Source of the DNA: Dysidea avara
Lineage: Eukaryota; Porifera; Demospongiae; Dictyoceratida; Dysideidae
Direction: 5' to 3'
Length of the DNA stretch: 64,000 nt
NCBI RefSeq assembly: GCF_963678975.1
Contig: NC_089275.1
Location: 31,433,977-31,497,976 of the forward strand
The notes under the pieces were generated by a model. That model was given only the letters and a program-made list of their open reading frames with translations, did no database searches and was not told the DNA's origin. A program made the translations under genes and the position numbers. This document shows positions 11,663 through 58,960 of this stretch, one piece after another (the first letter of the stretch is position 1; the number at the start of each line of letters is the position of its first letter).

Positions 11663-12010
11663 GTTACTAATGACAACCAACAAAAACCCACAATCGATCC
11701 GTTAATTCTTTTTATCTTATGTTTAATCACCCACTGGAGGTGCCATTGCTAACTTATAAGGGAAGTTTCAGCAATGGTAAGTTGCAAGCTTCAATTTGAG
11801 AAAGCGTTCTGTTCCGTGGTTTAGTCCATCATTCCGTTCCGTAGAATAGACCCCACCAGCGAGGGGGCACTTTTATTTTCGGCAGGTTATATAGAGCCGG
11901 TATGCCGGTTACACTATTTTGCCGGCAGTGGAGGGTATAATACTTAGAATGTTACGTGCATTAAAAAAAAAACTTGTACAAAAAACCTAAGAAAGCGAAA
12001 AAAAAAAGTT

Positions 12011-13238: not shown

Positions 13239-13417
13239 TCAGCTGTGTATAATGACCGTCGTATTAAACATAGCTACAAGCAACCAACTCCAGTCACAAG
13301 CTACTGTGCCATACTTAACAGTTGTGTTCACAGAATTGAATCAACTAGCTAGAAAGTTGCAGACTCATAACTTCATTGATTAGCTACCAGCAGTGAGGCT
13401 ACCGGCGGACCGCTCTA

Positions 13418-14595
13418 ATGATTGGATATATCGCCGTTTTTGTGCTCTGTTTTGTGCAGGTGTACATGGCCAATTATTAACGAACATTCCACCACCGAGT
13501 ACTTCATATGTACAGATCTACGCTCTTCCGGTCGGACAAGGTGACTGCACGATTATCCAATGTCCAAGCAGCGGGGATATTATTGTTTTTGACTGCGGAT
13601 CTAGTGGTGCGAATGGGATTTTACCAAGCGACGTACAAGCATTCCTCGGTAGTAGCATCGACAAAGTACGATACATACTGGTAACTCATGCAAACCAAGA
13701 CCATTTCAACTACCTGTACCAGATCACCTGGAACACTTCTAGTGTGATGGCTGTTATTATCGGTGGAATGGCGTCAGACTACAATAATAATGTTAATATG
13801 AGAAATTGGCTGAGCAACTGGAATACAATAAATAAGCTCTACATGGTCAATAACGGAGTATCATGCATTGGCAGCACAAATTGTCTTATTACTAACGCCA
13901 AGATGCCATCTAGCACAATTGCAACTAACTTCTGCAGCAATCCAAGTATCCCATTTAGCATCCTCGCTACTAATGTTGGCAGTTCCGCAAACCAGAAAAG
14001 CATTGTAATGAAAATCGTACAAGGAGGATGGAGTATGCTTCTTTCAGGTGACATGGAAGGAGCTGCTTCTGTAACAATTGCTATGAACTTAGGTACTACA
14101 CTGCAGTCAACGGTGTACAAAATATCACACCATGGAGCAAGTGCAATGGCAAACAAGGTTGAGTGGCTTAATCCTATTAAACCTACATTTGCTTTTGCAA
14201 GTAATGGTTATGCTTTTCGTAATTGTCGTCACCCTAGATGCATCACAATTGACAGGTTGCTATCATTAAACACTATCACTACAACAACACCCCATAATTT
14301 ATACTGCGGAGGTACATCGGCAATGACTGACATGAACAATTCTACCTTTCAGTACAACATATTGGAGACCTCACCTACATCAACTTTAATTTGTTTCCTT
14401 ACTTACACATCTTCTGGTGCCTTACCAGGATCACACTGTGGTACCTCTACACTTACAGCAGACACAAATGATGGTGTATTTGACGATGAATGCCTCTCAA
14501 CATCTCAGACTGGAGGTACCACTCTGTCCATGACTGCACATCCCACCTTACTTGTTATAATGATGATGTTCAGCTTTATCATAATAATATTATAA
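13418..14595 (+). CDS. Metallo-beta-lactamase-fold protein, ComEC-like, secreted or GPI-anchored
   Basis: Proposed exons are 13418-13459 and 13516-14595, giving 373 residues. The long open frame has no upstream ATG (only a GTG at 13393). An ATG at 13418 in another frame encodes a hydrophobic signal (MIGYIAVFVLCFVQ). Removing a 56-bp intron (CAG|GTGTAC ... TATTAAC branch-like site ... TACAG|ATC) joins it in frame. The mature part shows LPVGQGDC (19-25), then THANQDH with H72, N74, D76, H77, then SGD (D193) and a SHHGAS block (H219, H220). This is the metal-site order of ComEC-like metallo-beta-lactamase folds, in which the second His of HxHxDH is often replaced, here by Asn. The C terminus is a hydrophobic tail ending in FSFIIIIL after a Ser/Thr-rich stretch, suggesting a GPI-anchor signal. 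The substrate is unknown. Alternatively the 5' end is frameshifted and the protein retains VHGQLLTNIPPP. Fold confidence is high; start confidence is moderate. Confidence 0.8.
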
Positions 14596-14872: not shown

Positions 14873-14879
14873 TTAGCCA

Positions 14880-14959
<80 letters not shown>

Positions 14960-15765
14960 CACACGCACGCACGCAACAGTAATTGGAAACAGTGGAAATG
15001 GAAACTGGAAACGGAAACGGTCATGTAAATGTACCCTAGAGTAAAATTGTTGTTTAGTGCCACCTCTTAAAGACTACCTTTTTACAAAGACCACCTTCAT
15101 ACAAAGACCACCCTGTAGTTGGATCTCAAAGATGGCTAAGACATACTGACCTTATAAGACTACTTCATGGTCACCTTTTATAGTGACTACCCTCTTTTAC
15201 AAAGACCCCAATGACCACCTCTCACATTGTAATAATAGCTACTGTAAGTCCAAACATCACTTTATCAAAACAGCTAGGTCAACTAAAATAAGCTAGACTC
15301 TATATCATCTCCTTATGTTCTATTAGCTACATTTCACTTGAATGGACTATTTTTGTTATGACACATTCTGGTACAAACTAAGCGATGACTTGAGTGAAGT
15401 GTGGACCAAAATAGGGTGACCCCTTTCTGTGAGTCACGACATACGTGTTAGAATATTACCACATAAAGAGTTGGTCTTTGTAAAGAGGTGGTCTTATAAA
15501 AGGTGACCTTGAAGTGGTGTAATCAACCAAGTATGCTTTAACTATCTTTTAGAGCCTGATTACAATGTGTTCTTTGTACAAAGGTGGTCTTTGTAAAAGG
15601 TAGTCTTTGTAAAAGGCAGTCTTTAAGAGGTGGCTGGTTTTACTCTAGGATACATGTATATAATGATTTGACCATTTCCATTTCCACTTTCTGGCTCCGG
15701 TTTCCAATTCCACTGTTTCCAATTGCCCCCCCCCCCCCTCCCCCACACACACACACGTACATATA
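14873..15765. mobile_element. Foldback element with microsatellite ends
   Basis: Left arm (about 14,978-15,235) and right arm (about 15,465-15,725) are inverted: ATTGGAAACAGTGGAA faces TTCCACTGTTTCCAAT, and both carry repeated CTTTTACAAAGACCACC-type units. The left end abuts an ACGC microsatellite and the right end a C-run plus ACAC microsatellite. Confidence 0.65.
14876..14974 (+). repeat. ACGC tetranucleotide microsatellite
   Basis: About 24 perfect ACGC units with one ACAC. Cys/Arg/Ala/Val repeat frames here are artefacts. Confidence 0.98.
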
Positions 15766-19020: not shown

Positions 19021-22000
19021 TTAAGCAACTCTCTTGAAAGTGTCCAATCCAAACAGACCAGGAAATGCAAATCCAGGACTTTTCCCTGTCTTGTCATCGA
19101 TCTTCTCAAAATATAACCACTGATTGTTGGCAGCAGATACTTCATATGATACACAAGGCAACAGAGGAGGTTCTTTGATTTGAAAAAGAAGGTCATCATA
19201 GTAGGATATAAAAAGAGCAACAGTTGGAGATGTTTGTACAGCCAACTGATCTTCATACTGAAATATACTAAAGTTTGCTAGCCCTGATTGATCTATATAT
19301 GTTCCAATATATGCTTCTGGGTTAGGTGGAGCAGGATACTGCAATGAATGGAAAACATATCCATGACAGTACCTAGCACAGCTATACAATAGGTTATATT
19401 ACAGAGTTAGACCATGTAGCAGGATATACGTATGGGGAAAGGGAACAATTTTTGAAAATTTACAATTATTATTCATGAATTTTTCCCTCAAAATATTTTC
19501 TCAATACACTTGCTGTATCTAAATGGAATTATTTAAACAAACACTCTGAACTCTAGCAGATCAATACTATCATCTTGAATCATACAATACGATAGTACCG
19601 TATAGTGTGGACCACAAAGGAGTAGGCGTGGTCCATGAAAATTAACATCACCAAAAAAACCAGCCTCAATTTTCCCTGATGATAATGAGGCAGTATTGGT
19701 TAGGTAAAACTAAGCCCAAACAAGCCTTCAGAAAGCTTTCAACAAGTTGCTATGGAATTTTAAAAAATTTAACAGGAATTTTAAAAAATTTAACAGAATT
19801 TTTTTCTGACAAACTGCCTGCCTGGACCGACCGACCGACCGACCGACCGACCGACCGACCGACCGACCGACCGACCGACCGACCGACCGACCGACCGACC
19901 GATACCTTCAGACAAGCGTAACTCGACAATGGCTAAGGCTACGGGCTTGATTTTTCCACTGTTCGGTGTTTCTTCAGCTTGAGAGGTGCCTTTTGGCATA
20001 CCGCAGTACGTACAATGCATTCTTCATGGACTTACCAGTGTCCTTCTTTGTGTCCCATTCATCTTTGCTGACAGCGAAAAGTGTTGATTTGGCAGTAGCA
20101 CATGATGGTTTCACTTTGTAATAGAAGTCTTTCCTATTTTGTAAAGGATCTATGGTACTTTCATAGTGGCTATTTTGATTGCAGAGGTGCTTTTCGAACA
20201 GTTCTTGATTCGAAATGCTGTGTAATGGGTTGAACATCAGTGCTGGTCACTGTAAAGCTTCAATAACAATAGCATACATAGCTGACAATGAAGTGCAATG
20301 GATGCTTCACTTTTCAGATGATAATTTGAGCACACAACACCATTTCAGATGTGGTATGCATGAGGTCACCACTCATAACAATTATTTACAAAATGAAGTG
20401 AACAAACAAACACACAAAATATTTGGAATTTTCAACTGGAGTAGGGACCATAGCACATCATTAAAAAGTACTGAAACAAGTTGGAGTAGTACATGATATT
20501 AAATCACAATAAAACAATAAGAAGTGTTATATCCCTACTGTGCATTTCCGTTATGAGCACAGTAGGGATATATATAACACTTCTTATTGCTTTACTGTAA
20601 TTTAATATCATGGACTACTCCAACTTGTTTCCGTACTTTTTATCGATGTGCTATGGTCCCTAATGTAGTTGAAAATGTTTTGCGTACTTGTTGTCACTAT
20701 AAATAGTGCAGTAAAGGTGCCTGAAAATGTCAAGCCTTGACACAAAATTGGTTAGAGAACTGTATAATAGTATAATGCCAGAAACTGATATTAATTTTAA
20801 AATACCTTACAATACTGAACCTGTAAGTGATACCAACATGATTGTTATAAAACACAGCTGTGTAATTTGACTACTATACCTTGAAAAATTTGCAACAGAT
20901 AAAGAGCATATAAAGTCAGTGGGCTGGGGCTTGTTTTTACCACATTTCTACTTATTTACAAGCACAATGATTAATGAAAAACAGAAGTTATAATTGTATT
21001 GCATATTTTGTTGACCTTTTTGTAATACCCTAATAGAGCAAACATTTTTTTGTAGTATTAGGACTGAATTTCCATTATGGTAGATCTATGAACTTATAAA
21101 CTATTTAGTACATTCAAGCTAGAATTTTCATTTATAAAGTAGAAATTAAGCAAGGGGAACAATTGTGATATTCAGTGCTTAGACTTTGGGTGTTCAGTAT
21201 GGAGGTCCCTGGTCTGAAAAATTTTCGACATTTTTTACCCATGGTGACAGCTCTATTAGAATATTTCAATGCCTCAATTTACAGTTGTTTGGTTTTTGCT
21301 TTGTAGCTCAGTTATTGTCATTCCTTTCTTTTTTAAATCATTAAAGGCACTGATATATTGGCTAGTCTATGTACACAATGTTGTTCTCATAGGTGGTTTA
21401 TTTTGTAGCCATGACAAAAGTTCAGATTTTTAAATACAAATAAAGGTTCGTGGCACTGTGGATGTTCATCAGATTTTAGTACATGAACACCTTTATTAGT
21501 TTTATTAGTTATTTTTTTGTACTAGATTTTAAGGGAATCAAATTCCACATTTGAGTTTTATAGCATTTTTTTGCAAATTGTGAAAAAAGTATTCTAGGGC
21601 TCCCTGTAGCCCCTTAAGAAGAAAAATAAAAAAAGGAAAAATCAAAAGTTTGACTGCCCATATCCCATGATGGTTGGAATAAATTTTCTGTGTGGCCTAC
21701 TCTACTAAGTGGACAGCTATAATGCAAAACTTGTGTGTTTTGGAGAAGGGACCATGGAGCTACAGCATAGGTGTTTTCTTTCTTCCTATCAATTATACAC
21801 ACAGTGTGACATGTCGGCATTCTTTTAGCTGCACAACACATCATTACATGTGTCTCTATGTGCTTAAAAAAACACTACTGCATAACACCCATCACATGAA
21901 AATGTTATATTGAGCTAAAATGTAATAGACATTTACTACTGTGCAACAAAACTGTGTAGGGGGGTAAATTACTACATTATTGTAACACATCTTTACCTTT

Positions 22001-28000: not shown

Positions 28001-31000
28001 TGTCTGGCTCGGAGCGATTTTCTCTAGTACTCAAACTGCTGCGACTTTCGATGATCACGATATCAGTAAGTGTTTAACTAATCTATTTCTAGTCGTACAA
28101 CAAACTAATAGGATTAGTTTGGCTAGTTTTAGTGATTTACAATGTCACGCACGTGATCAATTGTGCTGTCTTAGTGGAGTCGTGTTTAAAAAGCTTCGTA
28201 ATCAGATGATCGGTAAGTGTTTATACAATCTATTCCTAGCCGTAGAACGAACTCATACAGTAGGATTAGTTTGGCTAGTTCAGCGATTTACAGTGTGTTG
28301 TTCACGTAACATTCCTTAAATAAATTCTCCTCATAACTGTACTGTATTTGCCCAAGTGTGCTGTATTTTCCCAATTAAGCGCATAACTGTACTGTATGAC
28401 TCATACAGTACAGTTATACAGTTGATTAGTACTAAAAACTCATGGGTTGCTTTCCTCCAGCTGTACAAAACCTATTGTTATGGACTAAACATCACATTTG
28501 TTTGTCCTTATGTACCTCTTGTAATGTAAAATCCTTCCCAACACTGTCTCTAAGAACATTAAAAAGCCTTCTACATCATCATTGGTAGTGCTGGATCTAG
28601 GATGTTCCTGGGGCAAATTATGCTGTGCATGGAAGCAGCGCCTCCACTCTCTTGCCTTTATGTTGGCAAACAATGCTACTATATGGACAATATGATACGT
28701 GGCATTGCTTTGATCCTCCCACGTAAAGTACAATAATTATAGCTTAATAGGAACATACTTTATATAAATAGATATGTAGGTTTTAAGTTCCAATAACTTG
28801 TTTAAAATAATTTCTGACTCATACATGTATGTTCCAAAATGATATTAAAGCCTATAATACATCTTGCAACAAGCTCTCAATTTCTTTATTAAAATGCAAC
28901 TTCATATTACTAGTGCTTACATTGCTACAGTATACATTTCAGATATTAAATTCATGATACTGTATTACTGTTTGATTGACTATTTAGAAATACAAGTATC
29001 TGTTCTTGAAAATTTAATAAAAAGTAGGTTAGCTACTAGCTAAAAAAATGGACACAAAAATTAATGTAAATATAAAGATACATTTTAAGGCTCATAATTG
29101 TGTCTGGTGAGTAGACCTACATCCAATATGCCAGTATAATAAAAAGCATGATAGGCTGGAGTGGCATATTAGGTGGATATTTCAAACTATGGAGCTTAAT
29201 TCTCAGAAATTAGATCAATACTCCCTAATAGAGCAGTCAACAGAAACTGCAATAGAAGTGCAAGCATGTAGCTATTTAGATCTATACTTTCTAATTGAAA
29301 TACTCTAATAGAGCATTCACTAATAAAATGTTCTAGTAAAAAATTTTAGGGGCATAAAATGGGAACACTGAAGAGCATAATAGGCAAGAATTTTGGGAAA
29401 ATCCTGATAGCATTTTGGGCAAACTTTTGAGCATATTTGACTCATGATCATGCCTACTGGTGAGCATATCATAAGTATGTACATAATGGTTAAAAGCAAT
29501 CCGACACTTCCTATACTAAAGTGCCAAACTATCTTTTGAATTGTATCATACTAACCATACAATACACAGCATTGCTTCGTACATGTAACCACATATCTAA
29601 ATACTTGCTATATACTGTACTGAGCTCAACTATGTTAACATTTACATGTTTACATCAAGACTCATGGTAGAGATTTGTGTGGCCAATAAAGAAAGAAGTA
29701 AAAGTGCATGATGAAATAAAATTTTAAAAAGCCTGCATGATCACTTATTTACATGTAACAATGGTTTTACAGTCTTCATTGTAATTCACATGTCTTTTAC
29801 CATTTTAAAACTGACATACAACAGGCTTTCAACTTGATACTATTATTGATACAGATAAATCTTGTATCCATAGATGATATGTACATGCATGCATGTATTC
29901 AAGAGAATCGGAATAGATAGATTATAACTGAAAAAAAAAATTATACTATATAATAATATAGTATGTAGTTCAAGTGATTTTAAATAGTGCATAATATAAC
30001 TCATATTGCTCCATATCATAACAAAGCATTGTCAATGTGTTACAATAGCTATTACTGCACTTACCACAAACACTTTAGAGATACTCCCAACACGGAATAT
30101 AGTGTCACTATCTGGTGTACGAGCAGATTTGGATTTTTTGTCAACCACACCATATCCAATATTCAGTATTGTTTCACCTCGATATGCTACAGCAGCTGCT
30201 AACCCCGGCTGTATAAAAGCAAAAATATCATGACCGTATATGTATGCTGACAGCATGATTGACAGTTACTTATACGTTATAGTACATGGTACATATTACA
30301 AGCACCTGTATCAGATTAGTCTCATATGGCAAGACTCTATTGTTGTCATGGTACTAGTATAATTATAGGATGCTGTCAATGCCTACTGATTCAGAAATAG
30401 TATGCAGCATCATGTCATAATCTCACTCATTAATAAAAATCTCACAAAACACACCCTCAGGGATGAAATTTTGACCATTCATCAAGCCAAAGTCATGTGA
30501 CTAGTATCAATTATTTGTAGCTTACTAGTGTCTGAATAGAAATTAACCACTTCATCTGCAGAACCTCCCTTGGGGTAGGACACCTCCTATTCACACATTT
30601 ATAGCCCAATTAATATTGGAATTATGCACGATTTTGAAAAGTACAAATGCAATTTGTTGTCATGCCTACAGGGTAATCTGCTCAACGGAATATCTTGAAA
30701 ATCAGTCTGTACATTAAGTAGGCCCCGGCTGATTATGCCAGCATAATTTGTGACCGGATTTGCGAAAATGGGTCTTCCACACACATCCAATTTACCAACT
30801 TTGATGATTCATAACTTCAGGTTGGAAAAGGGCATTACCTTGAAATTTGGTCAGTGGTGCACACCAACATAGCTTAATTGATGGAGAAAACTTCAGGTTT
30901 AGATATTACTCGAACACTGAATTATGGTCCTCCAAGTTATTATAATCGGATGTGTGTGGAAGACCTCTTTTCGCAAATCCGATCACATTTAAAGCATAAT

Positions 31001-36346: not shown

Positions 36347-37009
36347 CGCGTAGTTTCTCTTGAGTGGCTATATATGTAGAAAGACTGGCCTTGCTGCGTT
36401 TGAGGAATGCTGTGAGATTCGACGGTGATACCTCGTGTACACTGAGCTATTGTAGAGGTCACGAAATTCACCTTATAACCATGTGTACCGTTATCGTATA
36501 ATCGAATCAGCTGATGATCAGACCATGCGTTTATCACGAGATAGCTTGAGAGTAGTCATCAGATCGTGTAGTGTAACTTATTAGCTACGTGCCAGCAATT
36601 GCTATGATTTCATTTATGCATACAGAATACTTCGACCTTTTCATAAACCAGTGTGGATCTTTAAAAAACTTTGTGTCACATGATCTGTGCGGATTCAGTA
36701 TTACTGTGCAGAGACTTACAATGACTTGACTAGTAATCCTGCTGCAAGTAATCTTGCTCTAGTGATGCCACACAAACCAAAACTATTTAAGTCCTTTGCC
36801 CCTTAGTTACTTTTTTATAAGGTGTCGCCCCAATAAAACTACCTAAGTTAGATTCTTCCAACCATATGGTAAAGCTCATGGGTCTTCTCGTCTTTCAATT
36901 ATTCTATAGCATCTTCACTACAATTTCAATTTCATAAAGTTTAGTGTAGAGGTAGTTGAGCACTCGTGCAACCTTCATACTTGCCAACAATTAATTGGTG
37001 ACTGATTAC

Positions 37010-37158
37010 GTTACCAACCAAGAATTGATGTATATAAATATTCCTTCCTCCCAAGAACTGTACCAGAATGGAATAGATTAGATGATGAGATTATTGAGAC
37101 TGACTGTGTTGAAGAATTTAAGCAAAAATTAGCCAATTCTATGTATATAGTTAAGTAA
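37010..37158 (+). pseudogene. C-terminal end of a CR1/L2-like reverse transcriptase
   Basis: RYQPRIDVYKYSFLPRTVPE then WNRLDDEII and a stop at 37156-37158 is the standard C terminus of CR1/L2-type polyproteins. It is open only from about 37,010; upstream frames are closed. Its 3' UTR continues to 37210 and resumes at 50371 beyond the satellite element. Confidence 0.75.
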
Positions 37159-37275
37159 CTTATCGTAATTGTATATATTTTTATAGTTTATTATTGTAAT
37201 TGTACATATGAAGTGGCATTACAGACAGGATGTTATCCGTAACACGGAACTAATATACTAATAAAAACGGAAATT

Positions 37276-40200
37276 AACTTGTCTATACAGTCTATAGTGA
37301 CTAACCTGTCTATACAGTCTATAGTGACTAACCTGTCTATACTGACTAACCTGTCTATACGGTCTATAGTGACTAACCTGTCTATACCGTCTATAGTGAC
37401 TTACCTGTCTATACTGTCTATAGTGACTAACCTGTCTATACGGTCTATAGTGACTAACCTGTCTATACCGTCTATAGTGACTAACCTGTCTATACTGTCT
37501 AGAGTGACTAACCTGTCTATACGGTCTATAGTGACTAACCTGTCTATACAGTCTATTGTGACTAACCTGTCTATACAGTCTATATAGTGACTAACCTGTC
37601 TATACAGTCTATAGTGACTAACCTGTCTACACAGTCTATAGTGACTAACCTGTCTATACAGTCTATAGTGACTAACCTGTCTATACAGTCTATATAGTGA
37701 CTAACCTGTCTATACAGTCTATAGTGACTAACCTGTCTATACATTCTATATAGTGACTAACCTGTCTATACAGTCTATAGTGACTAACCTGTCTATACAG
37801 TCTATAGTGACTAACCTGTCTATACAGTCTATAGTGACTAACCTGTCTATACAGTCTATAGTGACTAACCTGTCTATACGGTCTATAGTGACTAACCTGT
37901 CTATACCGTCTATAGTGACTAACCTGCCTATACAGTCTATAGTGACTAAACTGTCTATATAGTGACTAACCTGTCTATACAGTCTATAGTGACTAACATG
38001 TCTATACAGTCTATATAGTGACTAACCTGTCTATACAGTCTATAGTGACTAACCTGTCTATATTATAGTGACTAACCTGTCTATGCAGTCTATAGTGACT
38101 AACCTGTCTATACAGTCTATAGTGACTAACCTGTCTATACAGTCTATAGTGACTAACCTGTCTATACGGTCTATAGTGACTAACCTGTCTATACCGTCTA
38201 TAGTGACTAACCTGTCTATACCGTCTATAGTGACTAACCTGTCTATACCATCTATAGTGACTAACCTGTCTATACCGTCTATAGTGACTAACCTGTCTAT
38301 ACAGTCTATAGTGACTAACTTGTCTATACAGTCTATAGTGACTAACCTGTCTATACGGTCTATAGTGACTAACCTGTCTATACGGTCTATAGTGACTAAC
38401 CTGTCTATACAGTCTATAGTGACTAACCTGTCTATAACGTCTATGGTGACTAACCTGTCTATGCAGTCTATATAGTGACTAACCTGTCTATACAGTCTAT
38501 ATAGTGACTAACCTGTCTATACAGTCTATAGTGACTAACCTGTCTATACAGTCTATAGTGACTAACCTGTCTATACAGTCTATAGTGACTAACCTGTCTA
38601 TATAGTGACTAACCTGTCTATACAGTCTATATAGTGACTAACCTGTCTATACGGTCTATAGTGACTAACCTGTCTATACCGTCTATAGTGACTAACCTGT
38701 CTATACTGTCTAGAGTGACTAACCTGTCTATACGGTCTATAGTGACTAACCTGTCTATACAGTCTATTGTGACTAACCTGTCTATACAGTCTATATAGTG
38801 ACTAACCTGTCTATACAGTCTATATAGTGACTAACCTGTCTATACGGTCTATAGTGACTAACCTGTCTATACCGTCTATAGTGACTAACCTGTCTATACT
38901 GTCTAGAGTGACTAACCTGTCTATACTGTCTAGAGTGACTAACCTGTCTATACGGTCTATAGTGACTAACCTGTCTATACAGTCTATTGTGACTAACCTG
39001 TCTATACAGTCTGTATAGTGACTAACCTGTCTATACAGTCTATAGTGACTAACCTGTCTACACAGTCTATAGTGACTAACCTGTCTATACAGTCTATAGT
39101 GACTAACCTGTCTATACAGTCTATATAGTGACTAACCTGTCTATACAGTCTATAGTGACTAACCTGTCTATACATTCTATATAGTGACTAACCTGTCTAT
39201 ACAGTCTATAGTGACTAACCTGTCTATACAGTCTATAGTGACTAACCTGTCTATACAGTCTATAGTGACTAACCTGTCTATACATTCTATATAGTGACTA
39301 ACCTGTCTATACAGTCTATAGTGACTAACCTGTCTATACAGTCTATAGTGACTAACCTGTCTATACAGTCTATAGTGACTAACCTGTCTATACGGTCTAT
39401 AGTGACTAACCTGTCTATACCGTCTATAGTGACTAACCTGCCTATACAGTCTATAGTGACTAAACTGTCTATATAGTGACTAACCTGTCTATACAGTCTA
39501 TAGTGACTAACATGTCTATACAGTCTATATAGTGACTAACCTGTCTATACAGTCTATAGTGACTAACCTGTCTATATAGTGACTAACCTGTCTATGCAGT
39601 CTATAGTGACTAACCTGTCTATACAGTCTATAGTGACTAACCTGTCTATACAGTCTATAGTGACTAACCTGTCTATACAGTCTATAGTGACTAACCTGTC
39701 TATACGGTCTATAGTGACTAACCTGTCTATACCGTCTATAGTGACTAACCTGTCTATACCATCTATAGTGACTAACCTGTCTATACCGTCTATAGTGACT
39801 AACCTGTCTATACAGTCTATAGTGACTAACTTGTCTATACAGTCTATAGTGACTAACCTGTCTATACGGTCTATAGTGACTAACCTGTCTATACGGTCTA
39901 TAGTGACTAACCTGTCTATACGGTCTATAGTGACTAACCTGTCTATACAGTCTATAGTGACTAACCTGTCTATAACGTCTATGGTGACTAACCTGTCTAT
40001 GCAGTCTATATAGTGACTAACCTGTCTATACAGTCTATATAGTGACTAACCTGTCTATACAGTCTATAGTGACTAACCTGTCTATACAGTCTATAGTGAC
40101 TAACCTGTCTATACAGTCTATAGTGACTAACCTGTCTATATAGTGACTAACCTGTCTATACAGTCTATATAGTGACTAACCTGTCTATACAGTCTATAGT

Positions 40201-41995
40201 GACTAACCTGTCTACACAGTCTATAGTGACTAACCTGTCTATACCGTCTATAGTGACTAACCTGCCTATACAGTCTATAGTGACTAAACTGTCTATATAG
40301 TGACTAACCTGTCTATACAGTCTATAGTGACTAACATGTCTATACAGTCTATATAGTGACTAACCTGTCTATACAGTCTATAGTGACTAACCTGTCTATA
40401 TAGTGACTAACCTGTCTATGCAGTCTATAGTGACTAACCTGTCTATACAGTCTATAGTGACTAACCTGTCTATACCGTCTATAGTGACTAACCTGTCTAT
40501 ACCATCTATAGTGACTAACCTGTCTATACCGTCTATAGTGACTAACCTGTCTATACAGTCTATAGTGACTAACTTGTCTATACAGTCTATAGTGACTAAC
40601 CTGTCTATACGGTCTATAGTGACTAACCTGTCTATACGGTCTATAGTGACTAACCTGTCTATACAGTCTATAGTGACTAACCTGTCTATACAGTCTATAG
40701 TGACTAACCTGTCTATACGGTCTATTGTGACTAACCTGTCTATACAGTCTGTATAGTGACTAACCTGTCTATACAGTCTATAGTGACTAACCTGTCTACA
40801 CAGTCTATAGTGACTAACCTGTCTATACAGTCTATAGTGACTAACCTGTCTATACAGTCTATAGTGACTAACCTGTCTATACAGTCTATAGTGACTAACC
40901 TGTCTATACAGTCTATAGTGACTAACCTGTCTATATAGTGACTAACCTGTCTATACAGTCTATATAGTGACTAACCTGTCTATACAGTCTATAGTGACTA
41001 ACCTGTCTATACAGTCTATAGTGACTAACCTGTCTATATGGTGACTAACCTGTCTATACAGTCTATATAGTGACTAACCTGTCTATACAGTCTATAGTGA
41101 CTAACCTGTCTACACAGTCTATAGTGACTAACCTGTCTATACAGTCTATATAGTGACTAACCTGTCTATACCGTCTATAGTGACTAACCTGTCTATACAG
41201 TCTATAGTGACTAACCTGTCTATATAGTGACTAACCTGTCTATACAGTCTATATAGTGACTAACCTGTCTATACAGTCTATAGTGACTAACCTGTCTACA
41301 CAGTCTATAGTGACTAACCTGTCTATACAGTCTATATAGTGACTAACCTGTCTATACGGTCTATAGTGACTAACCTGTCTATACCGTCTATAGTGACTAA
41401 CCTGTCTATACAGTCTATAGTGACTAACCTGTCTATATAGTGACTAACCTCTCTATACAGTCTATATAGTGACTAACATTTCTATACAGTCTGTAGTGAC
41501 TAACCTGTCTATACCGTCTATAGTGACTAACCTGTCTATACAGTCTATAGTGACTAACCTGTCTATATAGTGACTAACCTGTCTATACAGTCTATATAGT
41601 GACTAACCTGTCTATACAGTCTATTGTGACTAACCTGTCTATACAGTCTATATAGTGACTAACCTGTCTATACAGTCTATATAGTGACTAACCTGTCTAT
41701 ACAGTCTATAGTGACTAACCTGTCTATACAGTCTATATAGTGACTAACCTGTCTATACAGTCTATTGTGACTAACCTGTCTATACAGTCTATATAGTGAC
41801 TAACCTGTCTATACAGTCTATATAGTGACTAACCTGTCTATACAGTCTATAGTGACTAACCTGTCTATACAGTCTATAGTGACTAACCTGTCTATACAGT
41901 CTATAGTGACTAACCTGTCTATACCGTCTATAGTGTCTAACCTGTCTATACAGTCTATATAGTGACTAACCTGTCTATACAGTCTATATAGTGTC
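37276..41995 (+). repeat. Satellite array, forward orientation
   Basis: About 170 tandem units of 27 bp, core CTGTCTATACAGTCTATAGT followed by GACTAAC. There is a 29-bp variant (extra TA in CTATATAGTG) and a ~19-bp short variant lacking CAGTCTATA. Point variants (CGG, CCG, CTG for CAG) recur in the same order, for example 37753 onward against 39294 onward, giving higher-order copies offset by about 1.5 kb. Open frames here are repeat artefacts. Confidence 0.97.
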
Positions 41996-43772
41996 AGGTT
42001 AGTCACTATAGACTGTATAGACAGGTTAGTCACTATAGACTGTATAGACAGGTTAGTCACTATAGACTGTATAGACAGGTTAGTCACTATATAGACTGTA
42101 TAGACAGGTTAGTCACTATAGACAGTATAGTGTCAGGTTAGTCACTATAGACTGTATAGACATTTTAGTCACTATAGACTGTATAGACAGGTAAGTCACT
42201 ATATAGACTGTATAGACAGGTTAGTCACTATAGACTGTATAGACAGGTTAGTCACTATATAGACTGTATAGACAGGTTAGTCACTATATAGACTGTATAG
42301 ACAGGTTAGTCACTATAGACTGTATAGACAGGTTAGTCACTATAGACTGTATAGACAGGTTAGTCACTATAGACTGTATAGACAGGTTAGTCACTATGTA
42401 GACTGTATAGACAGGTTAGTCACTATAGACTGTATAGACAGGTTAGTCACTATAGACTGTATAGACAGGTTAGTCACTATATAGACTGTATAGACAGGTT
42501 AGTCACTATAGACTGTATAGACAGGTTAGTCACTATAGACTGTATAGACAGGTTAGTCACTATATAAACTGTATAGACAGGTTAGTCACTATAGACTGTA
42601 TAGACAGGTTAGTCACTATAGACTGTATAGACAGGTTAGTCACTATAGACTGTATAGACAGGTTAGTCACTATATAGACTGTATAGACAGGTTAGTCACT
42701 ATAGACTGTATAGACAGGTTAGTCACTATAGACTGTATAGACAGGTAAGTCACTATATAGACTGTATAGACAGGTTAGTCACTATAGACTGTATAGACAG
42801 GTTAGTCACTATAGACTGTATAGACAGGTAAGTCACTATATAGACTGTATAGACAGGTTAGTCACTATAGACTGTATAGACAGGTTAGTCACTATAGACT
42901 GTATAGACAGGTTAGTCACTATAAACTGTATAGACAGGTTAGTCACTATAGACTGTATAAACAGGTTAGTCACTATATAGACTGTATAGACAGGTTAGTC
43001 ACTATATAGACTGTATAGACAGGTTAGTCACTATATAGACTGTATAGACAGGTTAGTCACTATATAGACTGTATAGACAGGTTAGTCACTATATAGACTG
43101 TATAGACAAGTTAGTGACTATAGACCGTATAGACAGGTTAGTCACTATATAGACTGTATAGACAGGTTAGTCACTATAGACTGTATAGACAGGTTAGTCA
43201 CTATATAGACTGTATAGACAGGTTAGTCACTATAGGCTATATAGACAGGTTAGTCACTGTAGACTGTATAGACAGCTTAGTCACTATAGACTGTATAGAC
43301 AGGTTAGTCACTATAGACTGTATAGACAGGTTAGTCACTATAGACTATATAGACAGGTTAGTCACTGTAGACTGTATAGACAGCTTAGTCACTATAGACT
43401 ATATAGACAGGTTAGCCACTATAGACTGTATAGACAGGTNNNNNNNNNNNNNNNNNNNNNNNNNNNNNNNNNNNNNNNNNNNNNNNNNNNNNNNNNNNNN
43501 NNNNNNNNNNNNNNNNNNNNNNNNNNNNNNNNNNNNNNNNNNNNNNNNNNNNNNNNNNNNNNNNNNNNNNNNNNNNNNNNNNNNNNNNNNNNNNNNNNNN
43601 NNNNNNNNNNNNNNNNNNNNNNNNNNNNNNNNNNNNNNNGTATAGACAGGTAAGTCACTATATAGACTGTATAGACAGGTAAGTCACTATATAGACTGTA
43701 TAGACAGGTTGGTCACTATAGACTGTATAGACAGGTTAGTCACTATAGACTGTATAGACAGGTAAGTCACTA
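41996..43772 (-). repeat. Satellite array, inverted orientation, with assembly gap
   Basis: The same unit read on the other strand (GTTAGTCACTATAGACTGTA). The strand switch is at about 41,996 at a GTGTCAGG junction, and a second GTGTCAGG junction lies at about 42,129. Positions 43440-43639 are 200 N, an assembly gap of unknown true size. Confidence 0.95.
43440..43639. other. Assembly gap (200 N)
   Basis: Exactly 200 N within the satellite. The round number suggests a placeholder, so the array may be longer. Confidence 0.99.
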
Positions 43773-43773
43773 T

Positions 43774-44090
43774 CTAATCCAAAACAGCCAAGCTGTAAAA
43801 AAAGTGTGCGGCCCTCAGAAAGGCTATGGTGAAAAAAGATGTGAAATCCAAGGTGGCGGCCAAGAAATGGCTGTGATGGTAGGTTAATGGTAAAAATTTT
43901 AATAACGACAATTCAGGTGAATTTTTGTGCTGCTTCACAAAATTTACCTAAATTGTCATTATTAAAATTTTTACCATTAACCTACCATCACAGCCATTTC
44001 TTGGCCGCCACTTTGGATTTCACATCTTTTTTCACCATAGCCTTTCTGAGGGCCGCACACTTTTTTTACAGCTTGGCTGTTTTGGATTAG
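43774..44090. mobile_element. Near-perfect 317-bp palindromic element
   Basis: CTAATCCAAAACAGCC at the left is mirrored by GGCTGTTTTGGATTAG at the right. The two halves are reverse complements almost to the centre near 43,932, with a loop of only a few bases. It sits where the satellite is interrupted. Confidence 0.8.
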
Positions 44091-44176
44091 ATTTCATTTC
44101 TTTTTGTATTTGTATACCCCATTTATTTTATCAGTAAATGTACAAATTATATATATAATACATAATAATAATATTT

Positions 44177-44416
44177 TGTGAACGGATTTGCGAAAAGGGG
44201 TCTTCCACACACATCCAATTTGCCAACTTTGACAATTGATAACTTCAGACTGGAAAGAGCTATTGCCTTGAAATTTGGGCAGTGGTGAGCACCACTATAG
44301 CTGAATACATGGTGAAATGTTTAGGTTAATATGTTACTTGAACACTGAGTTATGGTCTCCAACGTTTATGGAATTGGATGTGTGTGGAAGACCCCTTTTC
44401 GCAAATCCGGTCACAT
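44177..44416. mobile_element. MITE with TGTGACCGGATTTGCGAAAA ends, copy 2
   Basis: Same 240-bp structure as 30748-30988, with ends TGTGAACGGATTTGCG and CGCAAATCCGGTCACA. It is part of the material inserted in the satellite block. Confidence 0.8.
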
Positions 44417-44439
44417 ATATTGATTACAGAAATCTCCAT

Positions 44440-47400
44440 GATGGTTTCTTTGTAACTGAACACTCTACAATGTGACTTCTTCTAATTGCTCTCTCTACAG
44501 GGTGAATTGTTTGTAGCTGAACGATCTACAAGGTAACTTCTTCTAGCTGATCTCTCTACAGGGTGATGTGTTTGTAGCTGAATTCTGTATAGGTGATTTG
44601 TTTGCAGCTGAGCTCTTTACAGAATGGTTTCTTAGTAGCTGAACTCTCTAAAAGGTAACTTCTTCTAACTGATCTTTCTACAGGGCAATTTGTTTCTGGC
44701 AGAATTTTCTACAGGGTGATTTCTTTGCAGCTGAACTCTCTACATGGTGGTTTCTTTGTAGCTGAACTCTCTACAAGGTAACTTCTTCTAACTGATCTTT
44801 CTACAGGGTGATTTGTTTGTAGCTGAACTATCTACAAGGTAATTTATTCTAGCTGATCTCTCTACAGGGTGATTTGTTTGTAGCTGAATTCTGTACAAGT
44901 AATTTGTTTGCAGCTGAGCTCTTTACAGAATGGTTTCTTTGTAGCTGAACTCTCTACAGGGTGATTTTTTTATAGCTGAAATCCCTACAAGGTAACTTCT
45001 TCTAGCTGATCTTTCTACAGGGCGATTTGTTTGTAGCTGAGTTCTCTACAGGGTGTTTGTTTGCAGCTGAATTGTCTACATGGTGGTTTCTTTATAGCTG
45101 AACTCTCTACAAGGTGACTTCTTCTAGGTGATCTCTCTACAGGGTGATTTGTTTGTAGCTGAACTCTCTACAGGTGATTTGTTTGTAGCTGAACTCTCTA
45201 CAAGGCGATACTTCTAGGTGATCTCTCTACAGGATTCCTTGTTTCTAACTGAACTCTCAACAGGGTGATCTGTTCATAGCTGAACTTTCTACTGGGTGAT
45301 TTGTTTGCAGCTGAACTCTCTAAATGGTGGTTTCTTTGTAGCTGAACTCTCTACAATGTGACTTGTTTGTAGCTGATCTCTCCACAGGGTGACTTGTTTC
45401 TAGCTGAACTCTCTACAGGTGATTTGTTTGTAGCTGAACTCTCTACATGGTGGTTTTGTTGTAGCTGAACTCTCTACAAGGTAACTTCTTCTAGCTGATA
45501 TTTTTACACTGCATATTTGTTTGTAGCTGAGTTCTCTACAGGGTGATTTGTTTGCAGCTGAACTCTCTACATGGGAGTTTCACTGTAGCTGAACTCTCTA
45601 CAATGTGACTTCTTCTAGCTGAACTCTCTACAGGGTGACTTGTTTCTAGCTGAACTCTCTACAGGTGATTTGTTTGCAGCTGAACTCTCTACATGGTGGT
45701 TTCTTTGTAGCTGAACTCTCTACAAGGTAACTTCTTCTAGCCGATCTTTCTACAAGGTGATTGAGTTTTTTGCAGCTGAACTTTTTACATGGTGGTTGCT
45801 TTGTAGCTGAACTCTCTAAAAGGTGACTTCTTCTAGCTGAACTCTCTACAGGATGATTTGTTTGCAGCTGAACTCTCTACGTGGTAGTTTCTTTGTACAG
45901 TAGCTGAACTCTCTACAATGTGACTTCTTCTAGCTGAACTCTCTACAGGGTGACTTGTTTTTAGCTGAACTCTCTACAGGTGATTTGTTTGCAGCTGAAC
46001 TCTCTACATGGTGGTTTCTTTGTAGCTGAACTCTCTACAAGGTAACTTCTTCTAGCTGATCTTTCTACAGGGTGATTTGTTTGTAGCTGAATTCTCTACA
46101 GGGTGATTTATTTGCACCTTATCTCTCTACAAGGTGACTTCTTCTAGCTGAACTCTCAACAGAGTGATTGATTTTTTTGCAGCTGAACTCTCTACATGGT
46201 GGTTTCTTTGTAACTGAACTCTCTACAGGGTGATTTGTTTGTAGCTGAACTCTCTACAGGGTGATCTGCTCATAGCTGAACTCCCTATAAGGTAATTTCT
46301 TCTAGCTAATCTTTCTACAGGGCGATTTGTTTGTAGCTGAGTTCTCTACAGGGTGATTTGTTTGCAGCTGAACTCTACATGGTAGTTTCTTTGTAGCTCT
46401 ACAATGTGACTTCTTCTAGCTGAACTCTCTACAAGGTGACTTGTTTCTAGCTGATCTCTCTACAGGGTGGCTTGTTTCTAGCTGAACTCTCTACAGGTGA
46501 TTTGTTTGCAGCTGAACTCTCTACATGGTTTATTTCTTTGTAACTGAACTCCCTGAAAGGTGACTTCTTCTAGCTGATCTCTCTACAGGGAGATTTGTTT
46601 GTAGCTTAACTCTCTACAGGTGATTTGTTTGCAGCTGAACTCTCTACATGATGGTTTCTTTGTAGCTGAACTCTCTACAAGGTGATTTCTTCTATAGCTT
46701 ATCTTTCTACAGGGTGATTTCTTTGTAGCTGAACTCTCTACAAGGTGATTTCTTCTATAGCTGATCTTTCTACAGGGTGATTTGTTTGTACCTGAACTAT
46801 CTACATGATGGTTTCTTTGTAGCTGAACTCTCTACAAGGTAACTTCTTTTAGCTGATCTCTCTACAGGACAATTTGTTTGTACCTGAACTCTCACATGAT
46901 TGTTTCTTTGAAGCTGAACTCTCTACAAGGTGATTTCTTCTAGCTGATCTTTCTACAGGGTGATTTGTTTGTAGCAGAACTCTCTACAAGGAAACTTCTT
47001 CTAGCTGATCTCTCTACAGGGAGATTTGTTTGTAGCTGAACTCTCTATACATGATTTGTTTGCGGCTGAATTCTCTACATGATGGTTTCTTTGTAGCTGA
47101 ACTCTCTACAAGGTAACTTCTTCTAGCTGATCTCTTTACAGGGTGAATTGTTTGTAGCTGAACGATCTACAAGGTAACTTCTTCTAACTGATCTCTCTAC
47201 AGGGTGATTTGTCTGTATCTGAACTCTCTACAAGGAAACCTCTTTTAACTGAGCTCTGTACAGAGTGAATTGTTTGTAGCTGAACTATCTACAAGGTAAC
47301 TTCTTCTAGCTGATCTCTCTACAGAATGATTTGTTTGTAGCTGAACTATCTACAAGGTAACTTCTTCTAGCTGATCTCTCTACAGGGTGATTTGTTTGTA

Positions 47401-47720
47401 GCTGAATTCTGTATAGGTGATTTGTTTGCAGCTGAGCTCTTTACAGAATGGTTTCTTTGTAGCTGAACTCTCTACAAGGTAACTTCTTCTAGCTGATGTA
47501 TCTACAGGGTCACTAGTTTGTAGCTGAATTCTCTACATGGTGGTTTCTTTGTAACTGAACTATCTACAAGGTGACATCTTCTAGCTGATCTTTCAACAGG
47601 GTGATTTGTTTGTAACTGAACTCTTTACAAGAAAACTTCTTCTAACTGATGTCTGAACAGGGTGAATTGTTTGTAGCTGATCTCTATACAGGTTACTTAT
47701 TTCTAACTGATCTCTTGAAT
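44440..47720 (+). repeat. Minisatellite, ~28-31 bp units
   Basis: About 110 imperfect units built on TAGCTGAACTCTCTACA followed by a variable spacer (AGGTGACTTCTTC, GGGTGATTTGTTTG or TGGTGGTTTCTTTG). Two spacer types tend to alternate, giving a ~60-bp dimer in places. Units differ more from each other than in the 27-bp satellite, so this array is older. Stops interrupt every frame. Confidence 0.95.
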
Positions 47721-47779
47721 TCTGTTCAGGGTGACTGCTCTATTAGGATGACTGCTCTATTAGAGTATCTCGATCTCGC

Positions 47780-48590
47780 ACTTGCTACACCAAGTTGGAT
47801 TTCGTGTTATAACTCCGTGGCTTTAAGTCTGATTCTTCTACACCATTGAAGAGCCTTTCTAAGGTGATAACTCCATCTGTACAGCGATTTTCAAAGCATT
47901 ACCCCAAGTGGTTTATCTGGTAGGCGTGGCAAGCATAATAATAATAATAATAATAATAAAATATAAAATAAACTAATCTCGATTGCGTAATTGTTACACA
48001 CTGTTGATTTTTTCGCTGTATCTTCCTGGTTTTTAGCTCGATTTCTTTCAAACCACAAAAGGTTTGAGGTTCAATAGTTAACCTATTCACCCACCGATTT
48101 TCAGCTTCTTCCCATACGCGGTTTACCCTGTAGGCGTGACAACATATTGGTGTTATTTTTCGTGCATAATCGCTCATAACTCTTTGCCTGTTTATGGTAT
48201 TCCAGCCAAAGTTGGTACAGAGATGCGCCTTTATACCCCCCTTCTGTGTGCCAAATTTCAAGGCAATCGGATAACGCGTTCGCGTTTTATAGCAGTTTTT
48301 GTAAGTGTGCGAAAAGAGGAAGAAAAATAAGAAGAAGAAAAAAAACGAAGAAACTAAGCCAATATTTGAAGTCGCATATCTCAGGAATGCCTGAAGCGAT
48401 TTCGCTCAAATTTGGAATGTGGAGTACTGAAGGTGGAGGGAATCTACACAGCAAAATTTGTCTTGTTTCATCAAGGCAGCACAGAGCTACGAAGGTGCGA
48501 AAATTGCGTTTTCTTTCTTCCTGTCAATATACTCACGGGGTTGCGCGCCGGCTTCTTGGGCCGCACGACACACTACCGTGTGTCTTGATA
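47780..48590 (+). repeat. Ancient dispersed repeat, unclassified
   Basis: Non-satellite sequence with an AATAAT microsatellite (47936-47960), a GTTGATTTTTTCGCTG motif like those in other repeats here, and A-rich stretches. Short open frames (for example 48246-48593) run straight into the satellite and look non-genic. It resembles sponge dispersed repeats I know, but I cannot name a family. Confidence 0.5.
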
Positions 48591-50275
48591 TAGACTGTAT
48601 AGACAGGTTAGTCACTATAGACTGTATAGACAGGTTAGTCACTATAGACTGTATAGACAGGTTAGTCACTATAGACTGTATAGACAGGTTAGTCACTATA
48701 GACTGTATAGACAGGTTAGTCACTATATAGACTGTATAGACAGGTTAGTCACTATAGACTGTATAGACAGGTTAGTCACTATAGACTGTATAGACAGGTA
48801 AGTCACTATATAGACTGTATAGACAGGTTAGTCACTATAGACTGTATAGACAGGTTAGTCACTATAAACTGTATAGACAGGTTAGTCACTATAGACTGTA
48901 TACACAGGTTAGTCACTATATAGACTGTATAGACAGGTTAGTCACTATATAGACTGTATAGACAGGTTAGTCACTATATAGACTGTATAGACAGGTTAGT
49001 CACTATATAGACTGTATAGACAGGTTAGTCACTATAGACTGTATAGACAGGGTAGTCACTATATAGACTGTATAGACAGGTTAGTCACTATAGACTGTAT
49101 AGACAGGTTAGTCACTATATAGACTGTATAGACAGGTTAGTCACTATATAGACTGTATAGACAGATTAGTCACTATAAACTGTATAGACAGGTTAGTCAC
49201 TGTATAGACAGGTTAGTCACTATATAGACTGTATAGACAGGTTAGTCACTATAGACTGTATAGACAAGTTAGTCACTATATAGACTGTATAGACAGATTA
49301 ATCACTATAGACTGTATAGACAGGTTAGTCACTATATAGACTGTATAGACAGGTTAGTCACTATAGACTGTATAGACAGGTTAGTCACTATATAGACTGT
49401 ATATAGACTGTATAGACAGGTTAGTCACTATATAGACTGTATAGACAGGTTAGTCACTATAGACTGTATAGACAGGTTAGTCACTATAGACTGTATAGAC
49501 AGGTAAGTCACTATATAGACTGTATAGACAGGTTAGTCACTATAGACTGTATAGACAGGTTAGTCACTATAGACTGTATAGACAGGTTAGTCACTATATA
49601 GACTGTATAGACAGGTTAGTCACTATAGACTGTATAGACAGGTTAGTCACTATAGACTGTATAGACAGGTTAGTCACTATACAGACTGTATAGACAGGTT
49701 AGTCACAATAGACTGTATAGACAGGTAAGTCACTATATAGACTGTATAGACAGGTTAGTCACTATAGACTGTATAGACAGGTTAGTCACTATAGACTGTA
49801 TAGACAGGTAAGTCACTATATAGACTGTATAGACAGGTTAGTCACTATAGACTGTATAGACAGGTAAGTCACTATATAGACTGTATAGACAGGTTAGTCA
49901 CTATAGACTGTATAGACAGGTTAGTCACTATAGACTGTATAGACAGGTTAGTCACTGTAGACTGTATAGACAGCTTAGTCACTATAGACTGTATAGACAG
50001 ACAGGTTAGTCACTGTAGACTGTATAGACAGCTTAGTCACTATAGACTGTATAGACAGGTTAGTCACTATAGACTGTATAGACAGGTTAGTCACTATAGA
50101 CTATATAGACAGGTTAGTCACTATAGACTGTATAGACAGGTTAGTCACTATAGACTGTATAGACAGATTAGTCACTGTAGACTATATAGACAGGTTAGTC
50201 AATATAGACTTTATAGACAGGTTAGTCACTATAGACTGTATAGACAGGTTAGTCAAGATAGACTCTATAGAGAGG
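48591..50275 (-). repeat. Satellite array, inverted orientation, distal part
   Basis: Continues the orientation of 41996-43772 after the inserted block. Units degrade toward the right end, with variant GTAGACTG and CAGCTTAG units near 49,960-50,260, as is usual at array edges. Confidence 0.95.
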
Positions 50276-50370
50276 CTATAGTCTCTATACACAAGGTGGT
50301 TAGAATTATTAGTATACTAGTAAAATCCCATTATCCGTGTTACGGATAACATCCTGTCTCTAATGGCTAC

Positions 50371-50512
50371 TGTACATATGTATATAATTAAGTAACTTGT
50401 CGTAATTGTACATACTTATATAGTTAAGTAACTAATGGAAATTGTACACATGTAATTGCACATCAGCATTATACCCCTGGAGGGTCCTGCTGATTAACAA
50501 TAAATAAATAAT
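50371..50512 (+). mobile_element. 3' UTR end of the split CR1/L2-like retrotransposon
   Basis: TAAGTAACTTGTCGTAATTG repeats the left flank (37153 onward, TAAGTAACTTATCGTAATTG). It is followed by a CTGGAGGGTCCTGC stretch and an AATAAATAAATAA tail, typical of CR1/L2 ends. The satellite element therefore landed inside this retrotransposon. Confidence 0.65.
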
Positions 50513-58070: not shown

Positions 58071-58529
58071 CCCACCCTGTCCCTACCCACTGAACAGTTC
58101 ACAAACTTCACTACACACAGGTACTCTATGTTAATTGGCACGGTATGCTGGCAGTTAAAAAATTCTAGTCAGTATTCCATTGTCAATAGTGGTACTTACA
58201 TACATATGTAGTGTAAGCAGTGGAGCGAGCTAAGTAGACACATAATGTTGTTGTTGTACTCTAAACATTTACATGAAAGACTGTACTATCATATGCATTT
58301 TGTTGCGAGTTCTTCAGCTGTAGGTCTGACTGGATTCCTTCACTGTGCCAGCCTGGATTCCTTCACCGTGCCAGCTGCTACCACAAGTAGAGATTGCTAT
58401 TGAGGGATGCTCGCAGTTCAAATCTTTGTCAGGAGAGATGCTCTTTTATCCTGCCTGCAGTCACAGACAAGCCCCTCCAGTTCAGAATGCCATCAGGAAA
58501 TTGGGTTGCTAACAGCTGCTTGCCTCTCC

Positions 58530-58960
58530 CATCCAGATCAGTATCAGGAGACGCTCTCCCAACCAGATTACTAGCTGAAGACGCTTTCCCATCCAGATCA
58601 TTATTAGGAGACGCTCTCCCATTCAAACTGCCAACTAGAGATGCTCTCCCAACCAGATTGTTAGCCGGAGACGCTCTCCCATCCAGATCACTACCAGGAG
58701 ACGCTCTCCCAACCAGATCACTAGCTGAAGATGCTCTCCCATCCAGATCATTATTAGGAGACACTCTCCCATGCAAATCGCCAACTAGAGACTCTCCCAA
58801 CCAGATCACTAGCTGAAGATGCTCTCCCATCCAGATCAGTATTAGGAGAAGCTCTCTCATTCAAATTGCTAACTAGAGATGCACTCCCAACCAGATTGCT
58901 AGCTGGAGACGCTTTCCCATCCAGATCAGTATTAGGAGACACTCTCCCATCCACAAGAAG
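58530..58960. repeat. 30-bp minisatellite
   Basis: About 14 units of 30 bp alternating CTCTCCCATCCAGATCA and CTCTCCCAACCAGATTG types, spaced by TAGCTGAAGAC or TAGGAGACG. Because 30 is a multiple of three, long minus-strand frames (GRASPxxDL decapeptides) appear; I regard them as by-products. Confidence 0.9.

Follow-up and report, generated by a model that had tools for sequence, protein, structure and literature searches.

The DNA analysed here, which we call the window, is a stretch of 64,000 nucleotides from the sponge Dysidea avara (assembly GCF_963678975.1, contig NC_089275.1, positions 31,433,977 to 31,497,976 of the forward strand). Between window positions 37211 and 50371 lies a block that is a DNA transposon: it has inverted ends and a target-site duplication, and its exact empty site is present in other copies of the repeat into which it was inserted, a repeat resembling long interspersed nuclear elements (LINEs). 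Most of its body consists of a 27/29-bp satellite arranged in two opposed arms. Taken as a whole, the block is best explained, with a probability that we put at roughly 0.9, as a non-autonomous foldback-type transposon whose satellite arms are its body and are carried with it.

Structure of the element

An end core, GACAGGATGTTATCCGTAACACGG, occurs exactly at 37224-37247 on the plus strand and at 50335-50358 on the minus strand. Elsewhere in the window it has no match at up to three mismatches (shuffle mean 0.00, n = 100), so the inverted outer edges proposed in the original prediction are confirmed, with an exact core at both edges and none in 100 shuffles. The left terminal inverted repeat (37211-37249, plus strand) is of a type that we call A, with the tip AAGTGGCATTACAG followed by the core ACAGGATGTTATCCGTAACACGG, as in the A ends of other copies. 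The right one (50333-50371, minus strand) is of type B, with the tip AGTAGCCATTAGAG joined to the same core as the A end; the two types differ outside that core.

The same ten bases, TGTACATATG, stand at 37201-37210 and at 50371-50380, with a third occurrence at 13505-13514 on the minus strand, and were originally read as a 10-bp target duplication. The ten shared bases are real, but the duplication is one base shorter. The B end of this copy begins AGTAGCC, as do the B ends of other copies, which makes the T at 50371 part of the element; we therefore rejected the 10-bp reading in favour of a 9-bp duplication, GTACATATG, at 37202-37210 and 50372-50380 (plus strand), where the flanks match.

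The host sequence is the tail of a repeat of LINE-like character that has sub-repeats of 36 bp. To the left of the insertion (37001-37210, plus strand), 198-204 of 209-210 aligned bases are identical in three uninterrupted copies, and to the right (50381-50510, plus strand) 128-130 of 130 are identical. Aligned over approximately 210 bases on the left and 130 on the right, these three copies show no gap at the junction. Genome-wide, the two flanks joined over just one copy of the duplication were found at 219 places at up to three mismatches (control, 0), and the 100 of these that were listed are all exact. These empty sites are other copies of the LINE-like repeat rather than the same locus in another individual. 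A plain 10-bp match is not rare in such a tail, where 1107 of 5250 window pairs share at least 10 bases. Consequently, the case for the duplication rests on the phase of the sub-repeats across the junction (21/36 matches versus 13/36) and on the empty site.

Inside the ends, the left or A arm (37275-41994) holds 175 satellite units on the plus strand, including units with CCG/CGG variants. The right or B arm lies on the minus strand in two blocks: an inner one of 57 units (41995-43773, interrupted by 200 N at 43440-43639) and an outer one of 60 units (48589-50289). Units are spaced mostly at 27 bp (200 cases) or 29 bp (71), with 13 at 20 bp and other values rare. The satellite reverses direction at 41994, so that the arms stand head to head, a feature that the original prediction had missed; the flip itself (41984-42010) has an odd junction that recurs at another locus, L048. 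That almost the whole interior is satellite, as first proposed, was correct insofar as the 27/29-bp arrays are real, but they make up only about 62% of the 13.2-kb element (computed with the end of the inner block placed 7 bases too far), and 43774-48588 is other sequence. The 27-bp unit has a 9-bp sub-period (at lag 9, 17 matches in 27 positions; 2 of 20,000 shuffles) and thus behaves as three 9-bp repeats, and the 18- and 20-bp units could be explained by loss of one 9-mer. The left arm also contains an internal duplication at about 1.5 kb, with 322 bp exact at an offset of 1538.

The sequence at 43774-48588 is probably a later insert in the right arm and would lie outside the foldback element proper. 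It includes a near-perfect palindrome of 317 bp (43774-44090; 95.6% self-complementary over 318 columns), a small element with inverted ends (44166-44426) that has a related copy at 30743-30991 (83.6% over 250 columns), and a 31-bp minisatellite (44445-47715, plus strand) of a separate repeat family that is also found in the flanks of other copies. The two array blocks flanking it have more non-consensus units in common (10/20 and 10/27) than they have with the left arm, whose 95 non-consensus units are shared in 0 cases with the inner right block and in 11 with the outer one. Pooled left-right sharing was 14 units, against a permutation minimum of 70 (n = 2000). Because the blocks beside the insert share variants, the right arm was probably one array that was later split, and because pieces of the insert recur in the outer flanking sequence of other loci, the insert is a separate repeat family. 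On these two grounds we rejected the insert as an original loop of the element and infer that other mobile sequence entered the right arm of the window copy. Sequence related to the insert lies between the two arms of one other element (L045), however, which keeps the original-loop reading partly alive.

The 31-bp-minisatellite family (44445-48588 in the window) has a 3' part that ends in a short hairpin, GACACAC-TACC-GTGTGTC, and has matches in or beside L003, L005, L007, L008, L012, L026, L029, L032, L038, L040, L042, and L045. In general appearance it resembles a Helitron/Helentron-type repeat, to which it may belong.

Copies elsewhere in the genome

A search of the species' own genome (550.8 Mb in 108 contigs) found the end core 42 times in forward and 44 times in reverse orientation, 86 in all (reversed-pattern control, 0). 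A second, degenerate search found 89 places (control, 0), and the joined set came to 92 ends after one duplicate core row (C2:330969) was dropped. Neighbouring ends no more than 40 kb apart were in the facing plus-minus arrangement in 31 cases, minus-plus and plus-plus in none, and minus-minus in 2. Core-to-core distances within pairs ran from 547 bases to 38 kb, with a median of 8.0 kb. Ends were typed, and duplications compared, in 89 of the 92 ends (all but C5:16058783 and both ends of L050), of which 6 were untypable. Over 30 pairs, the types were A+B in 27, A+A in one (L033), and B+B in two, the latter from a sister family; the tips of A and B ends show small variants among copies.

A 9-bp duplication was identical in 19 of the 31 pairs (in three of them at an offset of 1-2 bases), and three more matched at 8 of 9 positions. 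Both sister-family pairs have an 8-bp duplication (L034 and L055, the latter read by eye), and 24 of 31 pairs overall have a duplication of 8-9 bp. Comparisons between ends that are not partners reached at least eight matches in 3 of 3886 cases, 2 of which involve ends on contigs C7 and C64. Under strict placement, 10 of 19 elements matched at 9/9 and 2 of 19 at 8/9, while mismatched pairings reached eight or more in 0 of 342. The outer 1.5 kb was free of satellite units at 29 of 30 end loci, the exception (L030) adjoining a local duplication. The expectation of other copies with the same ends is therefore borne out by the 31 pairs of varied length, mostly with 8-9 bp duplications and including a short 15-unit copy of 0.55 kb. 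No autonomous copy turned up, the search for Mutator-like element (MULE) domains having scored 150 of 410 candidates.

The build of the window copy is general. We compared 18 elements with the 27-bp kind of unit (the window copy, L031-L033, and L035-L048), setting apart L050, which is two ends in the same orientation, and the sister-family loci L034 and L055. The arms have opposite orientations in all 18, with a direct plus-to-minus flip in 17; in the eighteenth, L045, both orientations are present and other sequence separates the arms, and at the centre of L033 the orientation changes several additional times. Unit numbers range from 15 in the smallest element (L039, 0.55 kb) to more than 300, with 339 counted in the 10 kb read of L048. 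The distance between core and first unit is 53 bases at 13 of 18 A ends and 61-62 bases at 14 of 16 B ends. Opposed tandem-repeat arms, a target duplication, and many dispersed copies of differing arm length are the structural marks of the foldback class, and all are present.

Flip junctions differ between copies. We considered whether the flip is a recent inverted duplication and rejected the idea: among 13 elements with a baseline, the first 150 mirrored bases were above the random-register mean in 7, with no consistent excess. In one later bin of L041, mirrored-arm identity was 0.971 versus 0.882. In all 9 elements that have CCG/CGG variants and in which both arms were read, such units are more frequent in the A arm than in the B arm (two-sided sign test, 0.004); these variants were chosen after seeing the window, and the count is 8 of 8 when it is left out. 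Seven other elements have no CCG/CGG variants.

The sister family (L034 and L055) has diverged ends, ACTAACCATTAGAG, a 9-bp unit of the AGTGACAGC type, and, in L034, arrays in opposite orientation. It bears on the origin of the satellite, which was first proposed to have grown from sub-terminal sequence because unit and end share GACAGG. The bases AGACAGG are indeed common to both, but in each arm their orientations are opposed. Of 5000 shuffled left ends, 435 have at least 7 bases in common with the unit on either strand, which is chance level. We thus rejected GACAGG as the seed of the satellite. The 9-bp unit of the sister family also contains GACAG, so a remote link between end and satellite may still exist.

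Arrays carried between insertions

If an array moves with the transposon, separate insertions should share variant units in the same order, and this is what was seen when 14 elements were compared in 91 pairs. In the B arm, 565 bases are identical between the window copy and L042 (contig C7), corresponding to 19 units in a row, 6 of them non-consensus. With L047 (C13), the window copy shares 398 identical bases of the A arm, or 14 units in a row. L042 and L048 share 10 units in a row, all 10 non-consensus. Shared runs of 19, 14, 10, and 9 units were reached by 0 of 300 unit shuffles. The unusual flip junction is common to the window copy and L048, which lie 4.6 Mb apart on the same contig. Because separate insertions share the order of variant units over long stretches, the array moves with the transposon, and in this family the satellite is the transposon's body.

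Genome-wide, a 40-mer taken from the unit has 1752 matches (control, 0). Among the 100 of these that were listed, which cover contig C1 up to 19.4 Mb, there are three clusters of 38, 17, and 45 matches, each directly inside an end. The path from transposon to free satellite that was originally suggested is not supported as stated, given that these C1 clusters sit inside ends and that array haplotypes are shared between insertions, although free arrays may exist elsewhere in the genome.

Relation to known foldback elements

The closest known counterparts are the Mutator/Foldback elements FB, Tm1, and Tetris, and the present family works like these. Tm1 of root-knot nematodes, as characterized in the relevant part of PMC3169594, likewise combines inverted ends with variable short tandem repeats, and it has asymmetric tip motifs and duplications of 8-10 bp, mostly 9 bp, as seen here. 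The same account describes a Tm1 copy with equal tips and no duplication, which parallels our A+A copy. The repeats of Tm1 are 13-15 bp long and a transposase-coding copy is known (PMC3169594), whereas the present family has 15 to more than 300 units of 27/29 bp, its arms usually meet directly, and no coding copy was found. For FB of Drosophila, the description in PMC7642927 includes 27-31 bp repeats that are oppositely oriented in the arms, a 9-bp duplication, and varying block numbers, all of which are matched here. The FB copies described there have inverted ends of 467-479 bp and a middle of 321-322 bp, whereas in the present family the ends extend approximately 65-75 bp before the first unit and a middle is usually absent; the two are likened by structure and not by sequence.

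Tetris of Drosophila virilis, in the portion of PMC4079207 devoted to it, is also a foldback element with satellite-like arrays in its arms, 8-10 bp duplications, and no transposase found. It differs in its 220-bp repeats, its arrays of up to 66 repeats, and its middle domain, and its repeats are described as feeding a satellite (PMC4079207). Rehavkus elements, as outlined in sections of PMC6446971 and PMC10218199, make 9-bp duplications, and the inverted termini of Rehavkus-1_TC carry satellite repeats, as here. They differ in having a PHD-finger transposase and a 164-bp unit that is mostly present as five and eight monomers (PMC6446971, PMC10218199), and no coding region has been tied to the present family. 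What sets the present family apart is its scale (15 to more than 300 units), the fact that usually only arrays lie between its short ends, and the direct tracing of its arrays.

Among the papers listed for foldback elements, either with satellites or from sponges, no title describes the present family, and three strings of unit or end letters had no match in the literature text searched. The end core had no exact match in public viral or prokaryote contigs, and a 23-mer of the satellite had none in public viral contigs, the only ones searched for it.

Membership in the Mutator superfamily is likely, although, since no transposase has been tied to the family, we can only infer it. The typical 9-bp duplication falls within the range of 8-11 bp that PMC6446971 gives, where it treats the superfamily, for Mutator target duplications. 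In comparison with a single known end, that of maize MuDR (sequence from PMC2563033), the B end matches at 11 of 12 bases (10 of 20,000 shuffles as good) and the A end at 10 of 12 (17 of 5000 shuffles). MULE domains are abundant in the genome, with 410 candidates, of which 150 were scored.

The largest pair of ends, 38 kb apart, has a perfect duplication. The 24 kb of it that was read, in four stretches, holds other sequence; no satellite unit was present in the three stretches searched, and four open frames tried had no Pfam family match. One of these four, the open frame at L088 (C6:17734951-17735586), has 35 diverged matches as well as two identical copies, one on C1 and one on C10. Because the two identical copies lie outside pairs, this frame is probably a nested, unrelated mobile gene within the 38-kb element.

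Proposed mechanism and alternative explanations

A transposase made elsewhere, most likely of the Mutator kind, would recognise the inverted end of about 37 bp in its A and B versions. The element inserts with a 9-bp duplication, as the ends, the duplication, and the empty site show, and its body is made mostly of satellite in two head-to-head arms. The unit is apparently a trimer of a 9-bp repeat, and the arms may gain or lose length through slippage or unequal exchange, with 9 bp among the step sizes, a mechanism suggested by the observed unit lengths. The arrays are copied to new sites with the element, as the shared order of variant units and the shared flip junction show, and in the window copy mobile sequence would later have landed in the right arm, as the variants shared on either side suggest.

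Several observations weigh against this interpretation. Seven of the 31 pairs, L040 among them, have no duplication, and 30 of the 92 ends lack a partner at distances of up to 40 kb. Ends occurring alone and unpaired across the genome had been named in advance as grounds for abandoning the idea, and these partnerless ends bear that objection out in part. Among eight unpaired ends with 1.5 kb of inner sequence (L001, L005, L014, L015, L016, L018, L019, and L027), six have an array inside, and L005 and L014 have none on the inner side. No MULE domain lies inside the end pairs among the 150 scored of 410 candidates, the nearest being 8.5 kb outside, and four MULE loci that were inspected lack these ends or such arrays. 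Gaps of N occur inside the arrays of the window copy and of others and make arm lengths uncertain. Finally, identical stretches of at least 180 bases occur between arms of different type (5/182) as well as between A arms (4/91) and between B arms (8/91). The longest cross-arm match, 378 bases between the A arm of L043 and the B arm of L047, consists of 13 plain consensus units. Because such matches exist, length alone proves little about descent; we set aside long identity as proof of it and relied instead on same-arm matches that hold several variant units in order.

These same-arm matches make it improbable that arrays grew only after insertion, with short elements like the 0.55-kb copy landing first and each expanding locally, the path favoured by the original prediction. 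Array sizes do vary from 15 to more than 300 units, and the exact 322 bp at offset 1538 in the left arm of the window copy indicates that local expansion does occur. Independent local growth is nevertheless hard to reconcile with runs of as many as 19 consecutive units, six of them non-consensus, that recur in separate insertions (0 of 300 shuffles), with the single flip junction shared by the window copy and L048, or with the fixed distance to the first unit (53 bases in 13/18 A ends, 61-62 in 14/16 B ends). Together, these three observations require that, in the copies concerned, arrays of at least several hundred bases moved as such. A free satellite might alternatively have been captured, a pre-existing array gaining transposon ends around it or at its edges, and it is true that the unit has no significant similarity to the ends and that array placement is known for the 100 listed of 1752 unit matches. 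We regard capture as very unlikely given the 31 of 33 facing neighbours, mostly with matching duplications, the sister family in which the same kind of ends accompanies another 9-bp unit and, in L034, opposed arrays, and the position of all three array clusters listed on C1 up to 19.4 Mb inside an end. Least credible is an assembly artefact in which unrelated array edges were joined by the assembler. N gaps inside arrays and two elements on C7 with crosswise-matching flanks would fit such an error. Both edges of the window copy, however, are set in one kind of LINE tail and flanked by a 9-bp duplication, paralogous sites without the interruption are present, and the short copies L032, L039, and L041 contain no N at all and have the same build.

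A question of a different kind is whether this non-autonomous foldback transposon belongs to another superfamily (e.g., P-type, like Galileo) and merely resembles Mutator/Foldback elements, which we consider possible but rather unlikely. Foldback structure arose more than once, as the discussions in PMC3169594 and PMC4079207 indicate, and no transposase is tied to the present family. On the other hand, the 9-bp duplications, and the asymmetric tips together with an A/A copy without duplication, recall Tm1 as described in part of PMC3169594, and the similarity of the B end to that of MuDR (11/12; 10 of 20,000 shuffles) and the abundance of MULE domains in the genome also point to Mutator.

Other observations

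Two elements on contig C7 (23693797-23704098 and 24168241-24182704; loci L062-L065 and L087) have no duplications of their own. The 9-mer in the right flank of one matches the right flank of the other as its reverse complement, and their left flanks are unmatched. One of the arrays contains 200 N, and contig C64 repeats one of the junctions identically. The crosswise flanks could reflect a misoriented piece of scaffold or, alternatively, an inversion between the two copies that spans about 465 kb.

Elsewhere in the window there is a LINE-like reverse transcriptase domain (10515-11663, minus strand; Pfam RVT_1) and an open frame with a match to the metallo-beta-lactamase fold (13384-14595, plus strand; Pfam PF00753, E = 1.2e-6). 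Tetranucleotide arrays (CACG, GACC) and a 30-bp array at 14878-14975, 19825-19902, and 58524-58953 overlap open frames.

Implications

Whether satellites arise from transposons or are merely carried by them has often been argued from fragments. With clear ends, duplications, an empty site, and graded array lengths, the present family shows arrays that moved as part of an element. A tentative extension, which we offer as a speculation, is that of a transposable satellite. The array would be the working body of the element, selected for transposition (for example, by multiplying recognition sites or by letting fold-back arms be rebuilt at new flips), so that it would spread mainly or only by transposition, with the facing arms largely keeping their own variants. 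Since variant units serve as tracers, array growth, exchange between arms, and the formation of flips in foldback elements become measurable. Foldback elements of this kind are also natural suspects for inversions.

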